A DNA stretch of 64,000 bases from Rhizobium leguminosarum. Its GTDB lineage: Bacteria; Pseudomonadota; Alphaproteobacteria; Rhizobiales; Rhizobiaceae. Location: positions 208,026 to 272,025 of the forward strand of contig NZ_LWBS01000327.1 of NCBI RefSeq assembly GCF_001652265.1, read 5' to 3'. The notes below the pieces were generated by a model. It was not told the DNA's origin. It ran no database searches and saw only the letters and a program-made list of their open reading frames with translations. This document shows positions 31,435-38,911 of this stretch, piece after piece. Both the position numbers and the translations under genes were made by a program. Within the stretch, counting starts at the first letter, position 1. Every line of letters begins with the position of its first letter.

Positions 31435-33219
31435 ATGAACAAGGAGCACGATCCGTTTCGGATGTTCCTGCTCGGGCCTTTTGCCCTTGTGGACGCTGGG
31501 GGGCGGTCGGTTACTCCGAAATCCAAAAAGGCACAGGCTCTTCTGGCGATGCTTGCATTGTCCGCCCGGGGCTCGCGCTCGAGAATCTGGCTTAGAGACA
31601 AGCTGTGGAGCGATCGCTCCGACGATCAGGCGGCAGCCAGTCTACGCCAGGCGCTTTTGGACATTCATAAGAGTCTGGGGCCGGCACGAGATCTCCTGAT
31701 TGCGGATAAGAATACCGTTTGGCTGGATACGGAACGACTCGTGCTCGATACCGACCTGGTGGCTCGGACGGAGCGGTCTCCGGATCAAGTCACCGACGAA
31801 TTGCTCGAAGGTATCGACATCCGCGACCCCGAATTCGAGGACTGGTTGGCGCTGGAACGGCAAAACTGGTATCGCCGCCTCGATGAAGGACAAGTCCACG
31901 ATGTCTTCGAGCCGCGACAGCAGCCGAGCCGCGATATCGCCAAACATTCCGCCCTGCTGCCTTTAACAGGCGCCCCGGATACGCCGAGAACAGGCAAACC
32001 CGTGGACATCGCCAGCAGCGACCCATATCGACAGCGGGTCGGCGGTGGCTGGCAATGGATGATGGCTCTTCTGTCCCCCATCGTGGTGGGTGCCGGCGAG
32101 GGCGGACAAATTGCTGCGACACGGTTCCAGAATCTCATTGCAAAAGCCATCATCGATGGGCTGGGCTTTGGCGTCACCGACCTCTCCTTCACCTTGCCGA
32201 ATATTGAGGAGAGCGAACAGCAGATCAGCCTTCCGCTATGCCTACAGCTTCGCCTGACGTTTGATGGTGACATGGTGCTGATCGAACTGGTGATGAAGCA
32301 CCTGATCAACAACCGTATTCATTGGCTGGGCAGTCAGGCAATCAACCGCACGCAGTTCGAGAGGGGCGAGTTCGGCATCGCCGCTGCGCTGATCAGCCAG
32401 GCCGTCGATCAGCTGGCCTATTTCCAGGAGATCCAGGCAACCGACAGCCGATTGTCGCAGGACGGCCTCCTGATCGACGCCGTCAATGCGATTTTTCGGC
32501 TGTCGCGCGACGACCTCGATAACGCGGAGCGGCGCCTGGAAGAACAGATCCAGTATCAGCCGCGGTCATCGACTTTTGCCTGGCTGTCATTCATTCGGAC
32601 TTTCCAGGTCGGCCAACGGTTCAACGCGCTGGACGCGCACCTGATCGAGGAAGCCCAGGCCTATGCACGCAAGGCGCTCGAACTCGATCCGCAGAATTCC
32701 GTGTCGCTCGCGCTCGTCGGCCACGTCCATTCGTTCCTGTTCGGCGAATACGACTATGCGGCCAACCTGTTCGAAAAATCGATCCGCCTGAATCCGGCCC
32801 TGCCGCTCAGTTGGGACCTCTACGCGATGCTGCACTGCTATGCAGGCCAGCCCGACAAGGCGGTGGCCATGGCGCGTTGGGTACAAGAGCTCGGCGTCTA
32901 CAGCCCGCATAAATATTACTTCGATACGACCAAATGCATTGCGGCAGCGCTTGCGGGCGATCATGCCGCAGCCATAGCTGCAGGCGAAGAAGCCCTGCGC
33001 GCCCGGCCGAACTTCAACAGTCTGCTGCGCTATCTTACCTCCAGTCACGCCCATTCCAACAATCTCGGCGGCGCGCGGCATTACCTGCAGCGTCTTGAGG
33101 CGGTCGAGGGCGGCTTCTCCATCAACGCCTTCCGCGGCAGCGGCTATCCGCTGCTCGACACAGGCGGCGGCCAGATCTTGATCGACGGCCTGCTCAAGGC
33201 CGGCGCCAAGCTGCGCTGA
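31435..33219 (+). CDS. SARP-like regulator: OmpR-type winged HTH with TPR repeats
   Basis: A 594-residue protein if started at ATG 31435 (the frame is open from 31231). Residues ~8-100 form an OmpR/PhoB-like winged HTH of the SARP type: 'FLLGPFALVDAGGRSVTPKS', 'AQALLAMLALSARGSRSRIW', 'DDQAAASLRQALLDIHKSLG'. A short BTAD-like piece follows ('DPEFEDWLALERQNWYRRLD'). A middle domain of unknown type is followed by TPR-like helices from ~430 ('EAQAYARKALELDPQNSVSL', 'ANLFEKSIRLNPALPLSWDL'). It resembles CadC/SARP-type activators without a membrane segment. It is the first gene of a probable operon with the PAP2-like and protease genes (41-bp gap) and likely activates this cluster. Confidence 0.82.
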   Translation: MNKEHDPFRMFLLGPFALVDAGGRSVTPKSKKAQALLAMLALSARGSRSRIWLRDKLWSDRSDDQAAASLRQALLDIHKSLGPARDLLIADKNTVWLDTERLVLDTDLVARTERSPDQVTDELLEGIDIRDPEFEDWLALERQNWYRRLDEGQVHDVFEPRQQPSRDIAKHSALLPLTGAPDTPRTGKPVDIASSDPYRQRVGGGWQWMMALLSPIVVGAGEGGQIAATRFQNLIAKAIIDGLGFGVTDLSFTLPNIEESEQQISLPLCLQLRLTFDGDMVLIELVMKHLINNRIHWLGSQAINRTQFERGEFGIAAALISQAVDQLAYFQEIQATDSRLSQDGLLIDAVNAIFRLSRDDLDNAERRLEEQIQYQPRSSTFAWLSFIRTFQVGQRFNALDAHLIEEAQAYARKALELDPQNSVSLALVGHVHSFLFGEYDYAANLFEKSIRLNPALPLSWDLYAMLHCYAGQPDKAVAMARWVQELGVYSPHKYYFDTTKCIAAALAGDHAAAIAAGEEALRARPNFNSLLRYLTSSHAHSNNLGGARHYLQRLEAVEGGFSINAFRGSGYPLLDTGGGQILIDGLLKAGAKLR

Positions 33220-33260
33220 ACTCCGGACAAATCTTCACATCATCGCGCAAGGAGGCTGCA

Positions 33261-34289
33261 ATGGAAGCGGACACTACCGAGGAATCGCAATCGAAAATTG
33301 TTTTATTTCTAAACAGTTATAAATTCAGGATAGAGCCGGATTCGGTCCGTCCATGCGAACCCAGGGACGATGCCGGTGCTGATCCTCTCGCCGGTGCATC
33401 ACCGGCTGCACCCGATGCGGCCTCCGAAGCTGTGCTTTTCTTCGGCACGGATGACGATGGATCGCCCCTGCCCGGGCCCATGATGGCGACGACGGCCGTA
33501 GCCTCGGTCCTCAACAAGAGCGTTGCAAACAAGTCGGTGCTCAACAAGGCGTCGCTGAACAAAAACAAGAACAAAAATAAGAATAAGAACAAGAACAAGT
33601 CGACGATGGACGGCGGCAGCCTCGGCGTGTCGCAGCTTATCCCCTCCTTCGAGCTGCGCAGGCTGCACCAGCAGCCGTCACGCAACGCATATACCGCGGC
33701 GCGGCGCTTCACCTGGGAAAAGCTGGATATACTTCCGCCCCCCGGCCCGGATTATACCCGCCTCGAAACGACGGTACTGCTCTCCATGCAACGCCGCGAC
33801 CGCGAACGTGTGCGCCGCCTGCCCGACATTCAAATCGAGTCGACGATCTCCGTGGGGGAATTCACCCGCGCATTGCATATCGAGGACCTCGGCGGTTTCG
33901 AGCAGACGGAAGGTCTTTTCCAGGCAATCCTGACGGCCTGCGAATATGTCGGGCTGATTTACAAAAGCCAGTTCAACCGGCTGCGGCCAAATCAGTTCGA
34001 GCCCATGCTGCGGCCATTGCTGGCCGTGCCGGTCCACGAGTCCTATCCCAGCAACCACTCGTTCCAGTGCTTTTCGATCGCCTTCGCGTTCTCGACGATC
34101 CTGCCGGAACACCCGGCCACCGACGAGCTTGCCCGTATCGCCCAGAACGTCGCCGAAAACCGCGAATGGGCCGGCCTGCACTATCCGAGCGACACGCAGG
34201 CGGGGCGAGATCTCGCCCGACGCTTCGCTCCCTATCTCCACGACGCGTTCGGTCCTCTGTTCCAGGCCGTACACGACGAATGGGTCTGA
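33261..34289 (+). CDS. PAP2/vanadium-haloperoxidase-fold protein with Asn-Lys repeat N-terminus
   Basis: A 342-residue protein. Its C-terminal half holds the three PAP2-superfamily motifs in order: K235-x6-R242-P243 ('KSQFNRLRP'), P263-S-N-H266 ('YPSNHSFQ') and R301-x5-H307-x3-D311 ('REWAGLHYPSD'). These bind phosphate or vanadate in acid phosphatases and haloperoxidases. The N-terminal ~130 residues are disordered and acidic, then a 'VLNKS/VANKS/VLNKA' array running into seven Asn-Lys pairs (residues 100-113). No signal peptide or membrane helix is visible, unlike lipid phosphatases. It may be a phosphatase or halogenating peroxidase acting on the product of the cluster. The ribosome site AAGGAGG is strong. 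Confidence 0.8.
   Translation: MEADTTEESQSKIVLFLNSYKFRIEPDSVRPCEPRDDAGADPLAGASPAAPDAASEAVLFFGTDDDGSPLPGPMMATTAVASVLNKSVANKSVLNKASLNKNKNKNKNKNKNKSTMDGGSLGVSQLIPSFELRRLHQQPSRNAYTAARRFTWEKLDILPPPGPDYTRLETTVLLSMQRRDRERVRRLPDIQIESTISVGEFTRALHIEDLGGFEQTEGLFQAILTACEYVGLIYKSQFNRLRPNQFEPMLRPLLAVPVHESYPSNHSFQCFSIAFAFSTILPEHPATDELARIAQNVAENREWAGLHYPSDTQAGRDLARRFAPYLHDAFGPLFQAVHDEWV
33513..33599 (+). repeat. Asn-Lys coding repeat tract
   Basis: Degenerate AACAAR/AATAAG hexamers: three interrupted NK units spaced about five codons apart (33513-33555), then seven uninterrupted units (33558-33599) encoding (Asn-Lys)7. Codons alternate AAC/AAT and AAA/AAG, so it is not a pure microsatellite. The tract is strikingly A-rich in a high-GC setting. 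Confidence 0.85.
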
Positions 34290-34322
34290 ATTCGCCAGCT
34301 GCTGCTCAACAGGATCATAACC

Positions 34323-36017
34323 ATGACGGATCAAACACAAATGCCTGAGCCCGCACCGATCAACTACTATTATCTCTGGCACCTGACTGCCCTTGGCGTG
34401 GTCGACGCAGAATACGGAGCGGTTCCGCCGGCACCTCCAGCGCTCGATGTGAGCGCCGCACGCGCGCTCCCCGATCCCCTCATCACCGGCACGGTCTGGG
34501 ATGCTATCACTTCCGCCGGCCCGTTGCGACCCGCACGGGTCGCGTTGATCGATGTCGGCGTATCTCCGGATCATCCCAATCTGGCAACCCGGATTGACCG
34601 GGAGGCGTCAATCGATTTGACGACCCATCGTTACGGTGCGCGCGTGCTCGAAATTCTTGATACGACCACGTCCTTCGACCGCGAGGAAAGGCATGCCTTC
34701 TTTGCCGGGCTCGACATCGCTCCGCTCGGCAATATCGCCCTTTCGAATGACGACCGGGACTATCTCAGTGATCTGGTTGCCGACTACGCCGCGTCGGAAG
34801 GGGTACTCCGGCGGCTCTACAATCCGGAATCGCTTTTTGCATCGCATGGTACCTGCTGTGCAGGGCTGATCGTCGGCGAACCCGCCGTTGTTGCGGAAGA
34901 AGGCTCGCCAAGCCTTCCGCCGGAAGGAGCCTTCTATGGGAATGGCGACGAGCTGCGCACGAGCGGCAATCGCAATGTCATCCCCTATTTCGGCGTTGAT
35001 CCTTTCTCGAGGCTCATCTCGATCAGAACGTCCTTCGAAGACGATGTCAGGCAGTTCATTGCGGCCTTTCTTTATGCCTATCATCAGAAAGCAGACGTGA
35101 TCGTCTTGCCGCGCGGTCTGCCCGACCCGAAACGCAGCATCGTTGATCCGAAGAACGAGCTGAAGGCCGACCTGGAATTATGGAAAAACCAGGATGCCGC
35201 CAATCTGTTCACGCGCATTGCCGTTGCTGATCAGGGTGGGCCTGAACTGGAGCCGAAGGCTGCGCAGAAAGGTTCCAATCCGGATCGCCCGTGGCATGTC
35301 CTCAAACAACTCGTCCTCGCCATCAGCCGGCACATCCCGATCGTCTGCGCCGCAGGAAACAGTGGCGAGAGCCAGCTGATCTATCCGGCAAGCCTTGCCG
35401 CCGACGACAACGGCATCATTGCAGTTGGGGCCGTTACCGTCGAAGGTTTCCGTTCGGGCTACAGCAATTACGGCGAAGGATTGACGGTAGTCTCCCCCTC
35501 TGACGACGGGGAGGTCTTCAACAGGCATCAGTTGCGCCTCGACCGGCTTACTCCATTTGCCGCGCAGCATGACTACAGCGCCTTTCGAACGCGGGAATAC
35601 TACTATTCGCACTTCTCGCTGCTGACGACGGACCTCTCGGGGATTTTCGGCTATAATCAGGGCGCCGATCCGTGGTCGGCAATCGTGCCCTTCGGAACCA
35701 ATCCGGGCATCGGGGGCGGATACTACACCGCCTTCGGGGGCACATCAGGCGCGTCGGCGCAGGTGGGCGGGCTATGCGCCCTGATACAGCGGGCCTACAA
35801 AAGCCGCCACAATCCCGGTGACCGCCTCTCGGGGCCTCAAGTGAAATCAATTCTGAAGACCGCATCCCGCCTGGACGCCATTGTCGCGCCCGGAACGAGG
35901 AAATTGACGGCGGATTGCATGAACGCCGAGAGCGAGGACGCCGTCGAGATGGCCTATTTCTTTGGAGCGGGCCTGCCAAATGCGCGTGCGGCGGTACAGG
36001 CAGCTCTGGCCATCTGA
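34323..36017 (+). CDS. Subtilisin-like serine protease (S8)
   Basis: A 564-residue S8 protease with the whole catalytic set: Asp77 in 'RVALIDVGVSPDHPN', His175 in 'ASHGTCCAGLI', oxyanion Asn346 in 'VCAAGNSGES' and Ser475 in 'AFGGTSGASAQVGG'. A long insert lies between Asp and His (~95 residues) and another after the Asn. No signal peptide is visible, so it is either cytoplasmic or exported unusually. It lies 33 bp after the PAP2-like gene. In a modification cluster it could remove a leader peptide, which is inference. A terminator follows. Confidence 0.9.
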   Translation: MTDQTQMPEPAPINYYYLWHLTALGVVDAEYGAVPPAPPALDVSAARALPDPLITGTVWDAITSAGPLRPARVALIDVGVSPDHPNLATRIDREASIDLTTHRYGARVLEILDTTTSFDREERHAFFAGLDIAPLGNIALSNDDRDYLSDLVADYAASEGVLRRLYNPESLFASHGTCCAGLIVGEPAVVAEEGSPSLPPEGAFYGNGDELRTSGNRNVIPYFGVDPFSRLISIRTSFEDDVRQFIAAFLYAYHQKADVIVLPRGLPDPKRSIVDPKNELKADLELWKNQDAANLFTRIAVADQGGPELEPKAAQKGSNPDRPWHVLKQLVLAISRHIPIVCAAGNSGESQLIYPASLAADDNGIIAVGAVTVEGFRSGYSNYGEGLTVVSPSDDGEVFNRHQLRLDRLTPFAAQHDYSAFRTREYYYSHFSLLTTDLSGIFGYNQGADPWSAIVPFGTNPGIGGGYYTAFGGTSGASAQVGGLCALIQRAYKSRHNPGDRLSGPQVKSILKTASRLDAIVAPGTRKLTADCMNAESEDAVEMAYFFGAGLPNARAAVQAALAI

Positions 36018-36046
36018 GCCCCGGGGATGCTTTTCCCAGATTCCAA

Positions 36047-36071
36047 GCCTCCTCCATCGAGGGGGCTTTTT
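36047..36071 (+). terminator. Rho-independent terminator after the S8 protease gene
   Basis: GCCTCCTC and GAGGGGGC form an 8-bp stem (one wobble) with loop CATC, followed by TTTTT. It lies 29 bases after the protease stop and closes the regulator-PAP2-protease operon, so the next genes need their own promoter. Confidence 0.85.
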
Positions 36072-36076
36072 CTTTG

Positions 36077-36104
36077 TTTACGCCCTTTTTACGGATTTTT
36101 GACG
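36077..36104 (+). promoter_or_regulatory. Three direct repeats TTTACG/TTTACG/TTGACG with 11-bp period
   Basis: TTTACG at 36077-36082 and 36088-36093 and TTGACG at 36099-36104 start exactly 11 bp apart. They sit right after the terminator and about 155 bp before the HQxxH gene. They share the TTGACG core and 11-bp phasing with the repeat in front of the SARP-like gene (31193-31211). This fits a SARP operator that controls the second operon. Confidence 0.55.
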
Positions 36105-36258
36105 CGGTACTGGCGGGCGAATGACGCCCTTGGGCAATAGTGCCTCTCAACGGACGGCACCTACCGTTCCGATGCCAGACGAAGCCGGCCCGAACCGGGG
36201 CATCTTCGCCCGACATGCAACCTTGTTTCACCAGAAGACAAACCCACGGAGGCTGTCG

Positions 36259-37704
36259 ATGTCCGCGTCTCGCACTCAACAATTGGCAGATGAGGCACGC
36301 CACCTGCTCAGGGGCAATCCCCTGATGGCAAGCACCGTCTCCCTGCAGCGCGTCGCAACTCGCAACCTTTTAAAGCGACGCTTCCAATATGGGTGCACGC
36401 TCGCAGCGGGTTCGAAGCTTACCAATTGTTCGGCCGGGGTAGAGGCGCTGTCACGACATTTCCCCGGCCTTGCAGATGGCGGATACACTCGCCTGCTGGA
36501 ACTTCCCCCAGCGGCTGCCGAACCGGTCAGTGCCGACCCATATCGTTCGTCCGTGCTTGCAGCCTGGATGGGTGGGCTCGCGTGGAGCCTTGAATGGCAG
36601 GCGGGAGGCCCCGATGCGCAGATCGTCAGCGGCTATCTGCAGTCGGATCTGATCGCATCGGATCTTGAACTCGAACGTCAACCGGCGCGCCGGCTCTCTT
36701 GCGGCATCGGCCTCGCCCTCATTGAAAGTCCGGCACGGAGCCGTGTCATGCAAGCCCTCCTCAGCCAATGCATGCCGAGCTATCGCGGTTCCGACTATCC
36801 CATCACTGACGGCGCGGAATTGGATCGCATCGCCGACCATCTGGAGAGCGCCTTCGCGCTAATCGCGAAATTGGACGTGTACGGCTATCAGCGCCTGATC
36901 GCCGGCCTGCACACGCTTCACGTTGGCGTGCGGCGCGAACCGCCGTGTTCGTTATCGAGTTCGAACGAATTGCCGGGCAGCGCGATCATCGTCCTTTCCA
37001 GAGAAAGATTGCGCGACGGCGATCATGCCGCGACCGCGGCCCAACTGCTTCACCAAGCGGGGCATGTCCTGCTGGGGTTTTATACGACCTCGGCGGCGGC
37101 ATCCCTGCCTGGCGAGTTCCAATATGTTTCCCCATACAAGGAGGATCTACAGACGCTCGAGAGCATCCTGCATGTGACGTACACCATTCCCTGGGAGTGC
37201 GCCTTCCGCATGGCATGCCTATCCACCGAGACGGATCCTGAGCGCCGCACCTGGAAGATGGCATTCATAATTGCCTATGCCGCGCGGCAAGTTCCGCTCA
37301 TCGATATCGCCCGGAAAGGAATCGAACGTCTCGGCGGCGATGTTCTCCTCGATCTCCCAGACATCGCCGCCATTCCTTCCTGGAGTAGCCGGATTCTGTT
37401 CCTCGTGGGCCAGTTGCTTGCCGAAGAGCCTATTGCGCACCGCCAGGCCCACCTTGCCGAGCGCCAGCGAGTTCTCGATCGCCAAGCCTGGGATATTGGA
37501 CAGATGCTGCTACGCGGCAAGGAGCCGATCGATCCTCGGATGGGCCGGCGAGAGATCGATGACACCGGCGACAATGTCAGCCTCTGGTATGACGGCAAAT
37601 TCCACGTGATCGCGAAGGCGGCCGACCATGCGATGGGCAAGGATTACGCTTGCTACGCCGAGACGATCTGCGGAACTGCGCCCAGCGAGATGGAGGCGAT
37701 GTGA
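36259..37704 (+). CDS. HQxxH-motif protein, HEXXH-type peptide-modification-like
   Basis: A 481-residue cytoplasmic, mostly helical protein. Residues 265-269 read His-Gln-Ala-Gly-His in 'QLLHQAGHVLLGFY', an HExxH motif whose glutamate is replaced by glutamine (CAA for GAA). The layout, with the motif mid-protein and a C-terminal helical half ('LAEEPIAHRQAHLAERQRVL'), recalls the HEXXH-domain proteins (TIGR04267-like, some being 2-oxoglutarate-dependent peptide hydroxylases) of RiPP clusters; this likeness is from memory and weak. ATG 36259 has GGAGG six bases upstream (36248-36252); the frame is open from 36121. Its stop overlaps the ThiF-like start (TGATG). Confidence 0.6.
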   Translation: MSASRTQQLADEARHLLRGNPLMASTVSLQRVATRNLLKRRFQYGCTLAAGSKLTNCSAGVEALSRHFPGLADGGYTRLLELPPAAAEPVSADPYRSSVLAAWMGGLAWSLEWQAGGPDAQIVSGYLQSDLIASDLELERQPARRLSCGIGLALIESPARSRVMQALLSQCMPSYRGSDYPITDGAELDRIADHLESAFALIAKLDVYGYQRLIAGLHTLHVGVRREPPCSLSSSNELPGSAIIVLSRERLRDGDHAATAAQLLHQAGHVLLGFYTTSAAASLPGEFQYVSPYKEDLQTLESILHVTYTIPWECAFRMACLSTETDPERRTWKMAFIIAYAARQVPLIDIARKGIERLGGDVLLDLPDIAAIPSWSSRILFLVGQLLAEEPIAHRQAHLAERQRVLDRQAWDIGQMLLRGKEPIDPRMGRREIDDTGDNVSLWYDGKFHVIAKAADHAMGKDYACYAETICGTAPSEMEAM

Positions 37705-38660
37705 TGGTCAATGATCGGTCCAAACGATTGTCAGCGACCGCCACCGCGTCCGTCGACTTCCCGAACCTCGTCACCCACAGCCTCGGGCGGGGCGGCCGGG
37801 GGGCTCTGTTCACCGGCAATAGTGCCGATTCTGTCGAGGAACAGAGCCCTCATGTTACCAGGTCTGCATTCGTCGTCTCGTTGAAGGCTTCCGATATGCC
37901 GGCGGAGGACGAATATGACTCCGCCGCAATCGATCACCACGACGCCATCCTGGCGCCTCTTTGCCATCGGCAACGCGACATCGAACGGTTTGGCGACATC
38001 GACTTCGTCATCATCGGATGCGGCTGCTTGGGCTCACAGATCGCCATCCAGCTCGCGGCCCTCGGCGCGCGCCATTTTCTTCTCGTGGATGCGGATCGTA
38101 TCGATGAGAACGACTTGAACCATCTCCCATGGGCAAACGAGGCTGATCTCGGCTGGCTGAAGACGGACAGGCTGGCGACCCATCTGGCCGCGGGTTTCTC
38201 GGCCACTGTCTTCGCGCTGCCGGAATTTGCGGAAGGCGCCTCGGCGCTACGGTTAATCGCAAACTACGCCAATAACCCGTTCTTCATCCTCGCCGGCGGC
38301 GATTCTCGTCCAGCCCAAGATCTCCTGTCGGCCTGCCGAGCCTTGGAAGCCGGCCTGCCGCCTCATCTGCATGTGGGCCGCTCTGCAAACTATTGCATGG
38401 CAGGTCCTTTGGCCTTGCTGCATGAGGACGCATGTTCCGTCTGCCATTGCGCCATCCAAGTCGCAACCGACGACGGCTTACGCGCGCCGCCGGCCACCGT
38501 CGACAGCCAATTGGTAGCCAGCCTTGCCGTGTCGCAGATCGCCCAAAAATGCCTTTCGAGGCACTCGGTCGCCCGGGGACGCCAATGGACATTGGACCTC
38601 AAGGCGATCAGCCCGAGCTGCGCTCTCTCCAAACACCCCGAATGTAAGGTATGCCCATGA
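37704..38660 (+). CDS. ThiF/MoeB-type E1-like adenylyltransferase
   Basis: A 318-residue protein. After ~95 unassigned residues comes the ThiF Rossmann domain with the nucleotide loop 'IIGCGCLGSQIAIQLAALGA' (G105 on), then 'LVDADRIDENDLNHLPW', where the usual Arg of the N-L-N-R motif is His, and 'DLGWLKTDRLATHL'. Two CxxC pairs, 'CSVC' and a C-terminal 'CKVC', should bind zinc as in MoeB. E1-like enzymes adenylate the C-terminus of a ubiquitin-like or peptide substrate. ATG 37704 is coupled to the preceding gene with GGAGG seven bases upstream. No ubiquitin-like partner, E2 or deubiquitinase is seen nearby. Confidence 0.82.
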   Translation: MVNDRSKRLSATATASVDFPNLVTHSLGRGGRGALFTGNSADSVEEQSPHVTRSAFVVSLKASDMPAEDEYDSAAIDHHDAILAPLCHRQRDIERFGDIDFVIIGCGCLGSQIAIQLAALGARHFLLVDADRIDENDLNHLPWANEADLGWLKTDRLATHLAAGFSATVFALPEFAEGASALRLIANYANNPFFILAGGDSRPAQDLLSACRALEAGLPPHLHVGRSANYCMAGPLALLHEDACSVCHCAIQVATDDGLRAPPATVDSQLVASLAVSQIAQKCLSRHSVARGRQWTLDLKAISPSCALSKHPECKVCP

Positions 38661-38911
38661 TCGCGCTATTTTCCTCGGGATATTGTTGCTCCGTTGGCGC
38701 AACTGCCGGAACGAACGATGAGCTGACAATAACCGAAGCTCTTTGTGATCCACTGATCGCCATGGTGATGCGCGCGGATGGCGTGACTTCCGAAGAGTTC
38801 AAGCGACTCCTTGAGGCGGCAGCCCATGAGCTAAAAACCAAATTGGCTAACTCCATCAACGGAGGATCGAAGGAGCAGGCAACGAGGACGCCCGCTTCTT
38901 CCCACCGATAG
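38657..38911 (+). CDS. Small protein at the end of the ThiF operon (84 aa), candidate substrate
   Basis: An 84-residue protein starting at ATG 38657, overlapping the ThiF-like stop by 4 bp (ATGA); ATG 38651 adds two residues. The N-terminal 'IALFSSGYCCSVGATAG' has a Cys pair. The middle, 'LTITEALCDPLIAMVMRADG', resembles short rhizobial proteins of unknown role with an 'xxDPLIxxVMxADG' core. The tail is Ser/Thr-rich. Its small size and coupling make it the best candidate for a modified peptide or carrier, but a regulatory role is equally possible. Confidence 0.55.
   Translation: MIALFSSGYCCSVGATAGTNDELTITEALCDPLIAMVMRADGVTSEEFKRLLEAAAHELKTKLANSINGGSKEQATRTPASSHR

Follow-up and report, generated by a model that had tools for sequence, protein, structure and literature searches.

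In the 64,000-nucleotide stretch of Rhizobium leguminosarum DNA analysed here (the window; contig NZ_LWBS01000327.1, positions 208,026 to 272,025), six closely spaced open reading frames (ORFs), all on one strand, were found where a preliminary description made from the sequence alone had placed six tightly packed genes (Table 1). The overlaps reported there are also present: the ATG of the ThiF gene has one base in common with the stop codon of the HExxH gene, and the start of the small ORF overlaps the end of the ThiF gene. Preferred starts were judged by upstream sequence and homologue lengths; in the HExxH gene a longer frame opens at 36121. The anatomy is very probably that of two units lying end to end, namely a three-gene module and then an arm of the type known from pathways for ribosomally synthesized and post-translationally modified peptides (RiPPs). 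The module consists of a regulator with a TPR domain, a PAP2 protein bearing a tandem peptide array, and a protease, and the trio constitutes an apparently undescribed, widespread bacterial module. The array itself, (NK)7, had been missed by the preliminary description.

The PAP2 domain was identified by PF01569 (32.0 bits, cut-off 27.2). The closest solved fold is acid phosphatase 7f17, with a template modelling score of 0.74 by target length. The gene had been described as PAP2/haloperoxidase; the first part of that name stands, whereas a vanadium haloperoxidase identity was rejected, as the best haloperoxidase fold match had an E value of 3.6e-3 against 2.3e-8 for the acid phosphatase. The fold and motifs of class A acid phosphatases are satisfied, with PSNH for PSGH and NR for SR in KxxxxxxRP, PSGH and SRxxxxxHxxxD, which are taken here as the PAP2 active-site motifs; their RP, P, H, R, H and D are invariant in a 19-row alignment (A1). 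In the structural model, residues 1-150 mostly have a predicted confidence (pLDDT) below 50 and the domain is mostly above 85, and the array is predicted to be disordered in both PAP2 models. The NK-rich lead-in is largely conserved in 16 aligned rhizobial PAP2 proteins. The regulator matched the TPR profile PF13431 (31.5 bits, cut-off 24.4), in agreement with half of the earlier SARP-TPR label; its AfsR/SARP match was weak (15.3 bits, far under the cut-off). The S8 assignment of the protease was borne out by PF00082 (65 bits, cut-off 21.8) and by D, H and S motifs near 34548, 34842 and 35739, presumably the catalytic triad positions.

Table 1. Features of the six-gene locus (positions in the window).
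Feature	Position	Strand	Basis or remark
Regulator, N-terminal SARP/BTAD-like region and C-terminal TPR domain	31435..33219	+	PF13431, weak AfsR
PAP2-superfamily acid-phosphatase-fold protein with disordered N-terminal tail	33261..34289	+	PF01569, predicted fold
NK-rich degenerate lead-in to the array, LNKSVANKSVLNKASL	33510..33557	+	direct reading
(Asn-Lys)7 tandem peptide array, 7 units, 3 different hexanucleotides	33558..33599	+	
PAP2 active-site motifs KxxxxxxRP, PSNH, NRxxxxxHxxSD	33963..34193	+	located in sequence
S8 subtilase, third module gene	34323..36017	+	PF00082
aKG-HExxH-type peptide beta-hydroxylase homologue, 481 aa	36259..37704	+	TIGR04267
HQAGH motif of the HExxH-type protein	37051-37065	+	
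ThiF/E1-like adenylyltransferase homologue, altered GCGCLG and NHLPW positions	37704..38660	+	PF00899, 42-row alignment
Small protein, Rhizobium-wide family	38651/38657..38911	+	probably outside the system

Comparison of 17 loci showed the regulator, PAP2, S8, HExxH and ThiF genes side by side in 15 (L012, L013, L016-L028), so the arrangement is not due to chance; the other two (L014, L015) have a distant ThiF only. These 15 loci come from relatives of R. leguminosarum, from other Rhizobium and from two genomes belonging to a different genus of the same family, and their arrays range from (NK)5 to (NK)8. On plasmid pRL12 of R. johnstonii 3841 the five genes lie at RL_RS36050-RL_RS36030. The PAP2 in the pRL12 record (L174:4218-5030) is annotated from an internal Met, which shortens its N-terminal tail.

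When 397 genomes of the order were sampled, a PAP2 match was obtained in 47. Of the loci returned, 27 were further ones (L037-L063), and a related TPR regulator lies within 1.5 kb in 23 of them. In 22 of these 23 the array has four or more perfect units; the remaining one shows (GGNWF)3 and an imperfect further copy. Arrays of this kind are absent from the four loci lacking the regulator. Sampling was widened to 367 genomes of the class and 299 of the phylum, and the returned loci were examined. In the pooled set of 72 different PAP2 loci, with the same limits for array and regulator, the array was present in 36 of 37 loci with the regulator and in 1 of 35 without it (Fisher p 4.6e-18, which is descriptive only because the loci are related). 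In the single case without a near regulator, a QTQ array, the regulator lies beyond the S8 gene. Left out of the count are G295, the window and four duplicates, each of these six with array and regulator. A regulator-linked, array-bearing PAP2 occurs in at least 26 genomes of the order sample, with a ThiF homologue beside the module in 3.

The protease is part of the same association. A set of 39 wide loci, from which six duplicates and one 3-kb locus were omitted, has a TPR regulator near PAP2 in every case and a protease within 3.5 kb of PAP2 in 38: S8 in 33 and the unrelated Peptidase_A4 (G1) in 5. The figure of 39/39 is not an independent test, as the wide loci were mostly picked for their arrays (L169 and L170 are in the set by PAP2 score alone). 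For the 72 PAP2 loci, the wide loci and the named loci alike, regulator and protease queries were derived partly from module loci. In addition, 16 named plasmid loci were picked before their N-termini were read, from two PAP2 match lists with near-copies skipped (Phaeobacter: 2 of 21 records). These are from Rhizobium NXC24, Paraburkholderia phymatum, Caballeronia, Parasedimentitalea, Phaeobacter (two), Roseibium, Terrarubrum, Bosea, Paracoccus (three), Pontibrevibacter, Microvirga, Aliiroseovarius and Palleronia. Regulator and S8 were found in all 16, and the array in 15 through the ORF list; in the sixteenth, Parasedimentitalea, (NSF)7 lies in the PAP2 frame without a listed start codon. The named loci are not all new lineages, since the Aliiroseovarius PAP2 is 91.7% identical to that of L167 and the Phaeobacter records have the same array as L155. 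Two weak-match PAP2 controls, few as they are, showed neither array, regulator nor protease.

A HExxH or ThiF relative was found in none of the 39 wide loci and none of the 16 named plasmid loci, which makes regulator, PAP2 and protease the wider unit. The neighbours named in the preliminary description do recur, as the 15 loci attest, and the core recurs far more widely on its own. Its proposal of a single modification system accordingly holds for the protein families of the arm and fails for the trio, which is a separate module.

The amino acid word of the array varies widely. Outside the NK group, homologues carry GGA, GGF, GGH, GSL, TGN and NR, among others; the named loci added GSF, SGH, GNGQ, NGK, GGL and a mixed (NAH)3(TAQ)4. 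With all loci sets pooled, 38 words were counted (37 up to rotation), in 3 to 17 copies. In 39 arrays with 353 units, 263 different DNA units were found, and adjacent units are DNA-identical in 24 of 314 cases, against 22.1 expected from each gene's codon usage. Since synonymous codons are randomised inside the arrays, the peptide is under selection, and most arrays are not young slippage tracts; runs of identical DNA units are seen in a few of them, e.g. L150 and L158. A start-site artefact was ruled out, as DNA units inside the array differ synonymously only. Among 416 neighbouring ORFs of at least 150 aa, called mechanically, 3 have repeats of a similar kind. A tree of 40 PAP2 domains, with 18 of 37 inner branches well supported, carries 29 words and requires at least 28 changes. 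The four PAP2 pairs above 65.5% identity have the same word, while the next pair (65.0%) has GGF and NSF. Related words often retain one residue (GGF/NSF; AGN/TGN/TSN). These patterns point to a function that would demand uniform copies yet no fixed chemistry. The mixed (NAH)3(TAQ)4 array, in the PAP2 of Paracoccus sp. AK26 (L188:3665-4732), is possibly a snapshot of word change.

The partners of the array are exchangeable as well. The TPR domain is retained across regulators and the output domain is variable: in addition to the SARP/BTAD-like form, for which the L066 homologue gives a match (BTAD PF03704, 45 bits), a class III nucleotide cyclase domain (PF00211, 42.9 bits) replaces BTAD in L080, and the N-terminal part is annotated as winged helix in Phaeobacter and Parasedimentitalea. 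The five loci with the G1/A4 protease (Pfam was run on two of the proteins, and the other three were grouped by similarity) have the arrays AGN, TGN, TGN, NTG and TSN. It is argued that the swap of S8 for an unrelated protease means that cutting matters, with the array as the obvious shared substrate.

The RiPP-type arm of the window was examined next to its relatives. The HExxH-type protein matched TIGR04267 (mod_HExxH, 62.4 bits, cut-off 40) and the ThiF protein PF00899 (57.8 bits, cut-off 28.1), so the profile check suggested with the preliminary description does place both in peptide-modification families. The intact HExxH motif is absent from the window protein, which has HQAGH instead. 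The motif is intact in 17 of 31 homologues and altered in 13 (6 HQAGH, 2 HEAGN/HEAAN, 5 REAGH/REVGH), while 1 gave no pattern match; Rhizobium, Neorhizobium and Sinorhizobium plasmids also carry relatives. In a 42-row alignment the window ThiF has GCGCLG and NHLPW where L028 has GCGGLG and NRLTW, at sites which are taken to be the nucleotide-binding loop and the conserved Arg position. Its C-terminal CxxC, lost in many relatives, is present. Median ratios of nonsynonymous to synonymous substitution rates (dN/dS) against 14 loci were 0.14 for the regulator, 0.11 for PAP2 and 0.13 for S8, and 0.30 for HExxH and 0.52 for ThiF; the ThiF median leaves out one saturated pair, and the motif printout misses L019 and L021. 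Against L028 alone, at much larger dS, the values were 0.23 (HExxH) and 0.20 (ThiF). From these sequence comparisons the arm in the window looks relaxed and partly decayed, which is not proof of loss.

A fuller, apparently new RiPP-type cluster was found in Rhizobium sp. BK602 (L028:7638-15627). Between its S8 and ThiF genes lie the HExxH gene, a radical-SAM/SPASM protein (a RiPP-maturase model scores it at 148 bits, under the cut-off of 400), two precursor-like proteins, an S-adenosylmethionine-decarboxylase-like (SpeD-like) protein, two small ORFs and a methyltransferase; ThiF is followed by a double methyltransferase. The precursor-like proteins are paralogues of 107-110 residues with a common leader-like part and a DGNCGCAL-GPGG C-terminal region, and one of them weakly matches the NHLP clan (18.8 bits, cut-off 40). 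A hidden precursor of the BK602 type was sought in the window genome and gave no match at E 0.01, in an assembly about 93% complete and with unrelated precursors not excluded by the search. That assembly (8.18 Mb, 472 contigs, completeness 93.4%, estimated contamination 5.44%) makes genome-wide absences tentative. PMC12636437 reports aKG-HExxH enzymes able to hydroxylate consecutive Gln residues. The arm may once have modified the NK array; NK arrays also occur without HExxH, in L167 and L189.

The best overall explanation is the array-bearing module with a partly decayed RiPP-type arm beside it, together with the array mechanism outlined below, and it is put forward tentatively, at somewhat less than even confidence. 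In that mechanism the array would supply a peptide ligand in many copies. It would be cut by the protease (S8, or the unrelated G1/A4 in the lineages that have it), and the TPR domain of the regulator would bind the array or its fragments and switch the output domain, a nucleotide cyclase or a DNA-binding one. Since every copy would have to fit one and the same groove, uniformity would be required, whereas the word could drift jointly with receptor and protease. Read from sequence, a protease-processed multi-copy ligand for the TPR domain is a possible role and a little less secure than the explanation as a whole. Still more doubtful is a widespread proteobacterial signalling system in which a lineage-specific word is cut by a protease that is dedicated yet replaceable, and is read by a TPR receptor whose outputs can be swapped.

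Several observations weigh against this explanation. Beyond PAP2 relatedness, TPR similarity follows the array word only weakly and not to a significant degree (partial r 0.13, permutation p 0.07). A unit of 2-3 residues is short for a specific ligand, and the array of strain AK26 combines two words. L066 has array and regulator and no S8 or G1/A4 match within 16 kb, and the association of G1/A4 with its words may reflect shared ancestry, as the PAP2 proteins concerned are related. No secretion signal was apparent by eye (no predictor was run) and an exporter is absent from the conserved gene set of the wide loci, so cell-to-cell signalling is not supported. As to the arm, dN/dS below 1 for both HExxH and ThiF means that some function may remain.

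Alternatively, the intact array could be a multivalent tether by which the regulator or the protease is held on PAP2 and freed by cutting, with no peptide signal. The presence of array and regulator in all 39 wide loci and of the protease in 38, and the predicted disorder of the array, agree with this. It is a live rival, though less likely than the ligand; tethering alone leaves the change of word with uniform copies unexplained. Uniformity without conserved chemistry would also suit homotypic stacking, and so would the flexible copy number, if the array were a self-assembly or condensation element whose stacked repeats concentrate the phosphatase until the protease dissolves the assemblies. 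This too is a live rival, though somewhat less likely still: words from GGE and DAR to GGF and NK differ greatly in charge and hydrophobicity, and the array is unstructured in both models, although monomer models would not reveal stacking. A single modification pathway, active in this strain and made up of all six genes, is very unlikely. The HExxH/ThiF overlap, the company of both genes with the core in the 15 loci, the action of both families in RiPP-type pathways and dN/dS below 1 are in its favour, but the motif and loop changes, the dN/dS of 0.30-0.52, the missing BK602-type precursor, the many cores lacking HExxH/ThiF relatives and the genus-wide distribution of the small peptide are not. 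Finally, a neutral low-complexity linker is highly improbable, because residues are perfect while codons are scrambled, the association with the module is near absolute and few neighbouring ORFs have such repeats, even though short repeats are slippage-prone and near-identical proteins with 8 and 17 copies exist.

The small ORF had been proposed as the peptide of the pathway, a role that did not survive. No profile search gave a match above its cut-off. Relatives have about 69 residues with a common LTITEALRDPLIAMVMRADGV block and often a C-terminal CxxC. The family was found in 25 of 41 genomes searched, which are all 25 of the same genus, and the window genome has a second copy (G000:C109:66629-66799). 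Two genomes (G023, G396) have a match without any ThiF or S8 match. The small ORF and a DUF982 gene have matches in 12 of the 15 cluster loci, the small ORF being without a match in L012, L013 and L028. It was thus rejected as a dedicated precursor and, on its sequence distribution, probably does not belong to the system.

Known systems resemble parts of the locus. RRNPP systems of Firmicutes combine a TPR sensor, a short peptide and protease processing. The module likewise has a TPR domain; in contrast, it occurs in Pseudomonadota, its output is SARP-like, winged-helix or cyclase, its candidate peptide is an array inside a phosphatase-fold protein, and secretion or uptake parts were not seen. 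Class A acid phosphatases (7f17, PhoN 2akc) share fold and sequence profile with the PAP2 protein, which differs by its peptide array, by PSNH and by the TPR regulator and protease alongside. The HExxH-type protein scores above the profile cut-off of the aKG-HExxH hydroxylases (TIGR04267; PflC, PosC, BpmH), but has HQAGH, no radical-SAM gene among the adjacent ORFs and no BK602-type precursor found in the genome. ThiF shares PF00899 with ThiF/MoeB-type and RiPP E1-like adenylyltransferases, from which it differs by the altered loop and by the absence of ThiS or a ubiquitin-like protein among the six genes. The lack of radical-SAM and ubiquitin-like genes had also been remarked on in the preliminary description. 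An anti-phage defence role was rejected: PADLOC gave weak matches only, to bacterial E1-E2 defence, Pycsar cyclase and IetS (ThiF 37, L080 cyclase 23 and L087 S8 17 bits), and none for the window regulator, PAP2, S8 or HExxH proteins.

Staphylococcal serine-aspartate repeat proteins are surface adhesins with one fixed word and, to our knowledge, no TPR regulator-protease module. Long dipeptide arrays of variable copy number, as here, are described for them (PMC3324548). In titles and abstract openings of the open-licence literature, a description of the module was not found; a term search of PMC7159879 gave no PAP2, BTAD, SARP or haloperoxidase and one passage on subtilisin. The function of the array is testable in tractable bacteria such as Rhizobium johnstonii 3841 and Phaeobacter inhibens, and in the locus a RiPP-type arm is joined to an array module and apparently decays beside it. 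We know of no analogue of near-perfect arrays with randomised codons that are module-bound and spelled in a lineage-specific way, and the titles and abstract openings from the open-licence literature showed none.

In L064, L065, L066 and L190 the modules adjoin apparent oxidative-stress or peroxidase genes. By eye, the neighbours there are OxyR/KatG-like, OxyR/AhpCF-like and DyP-like ORFs, and a heme peroxidase is annotated in Palleronia.

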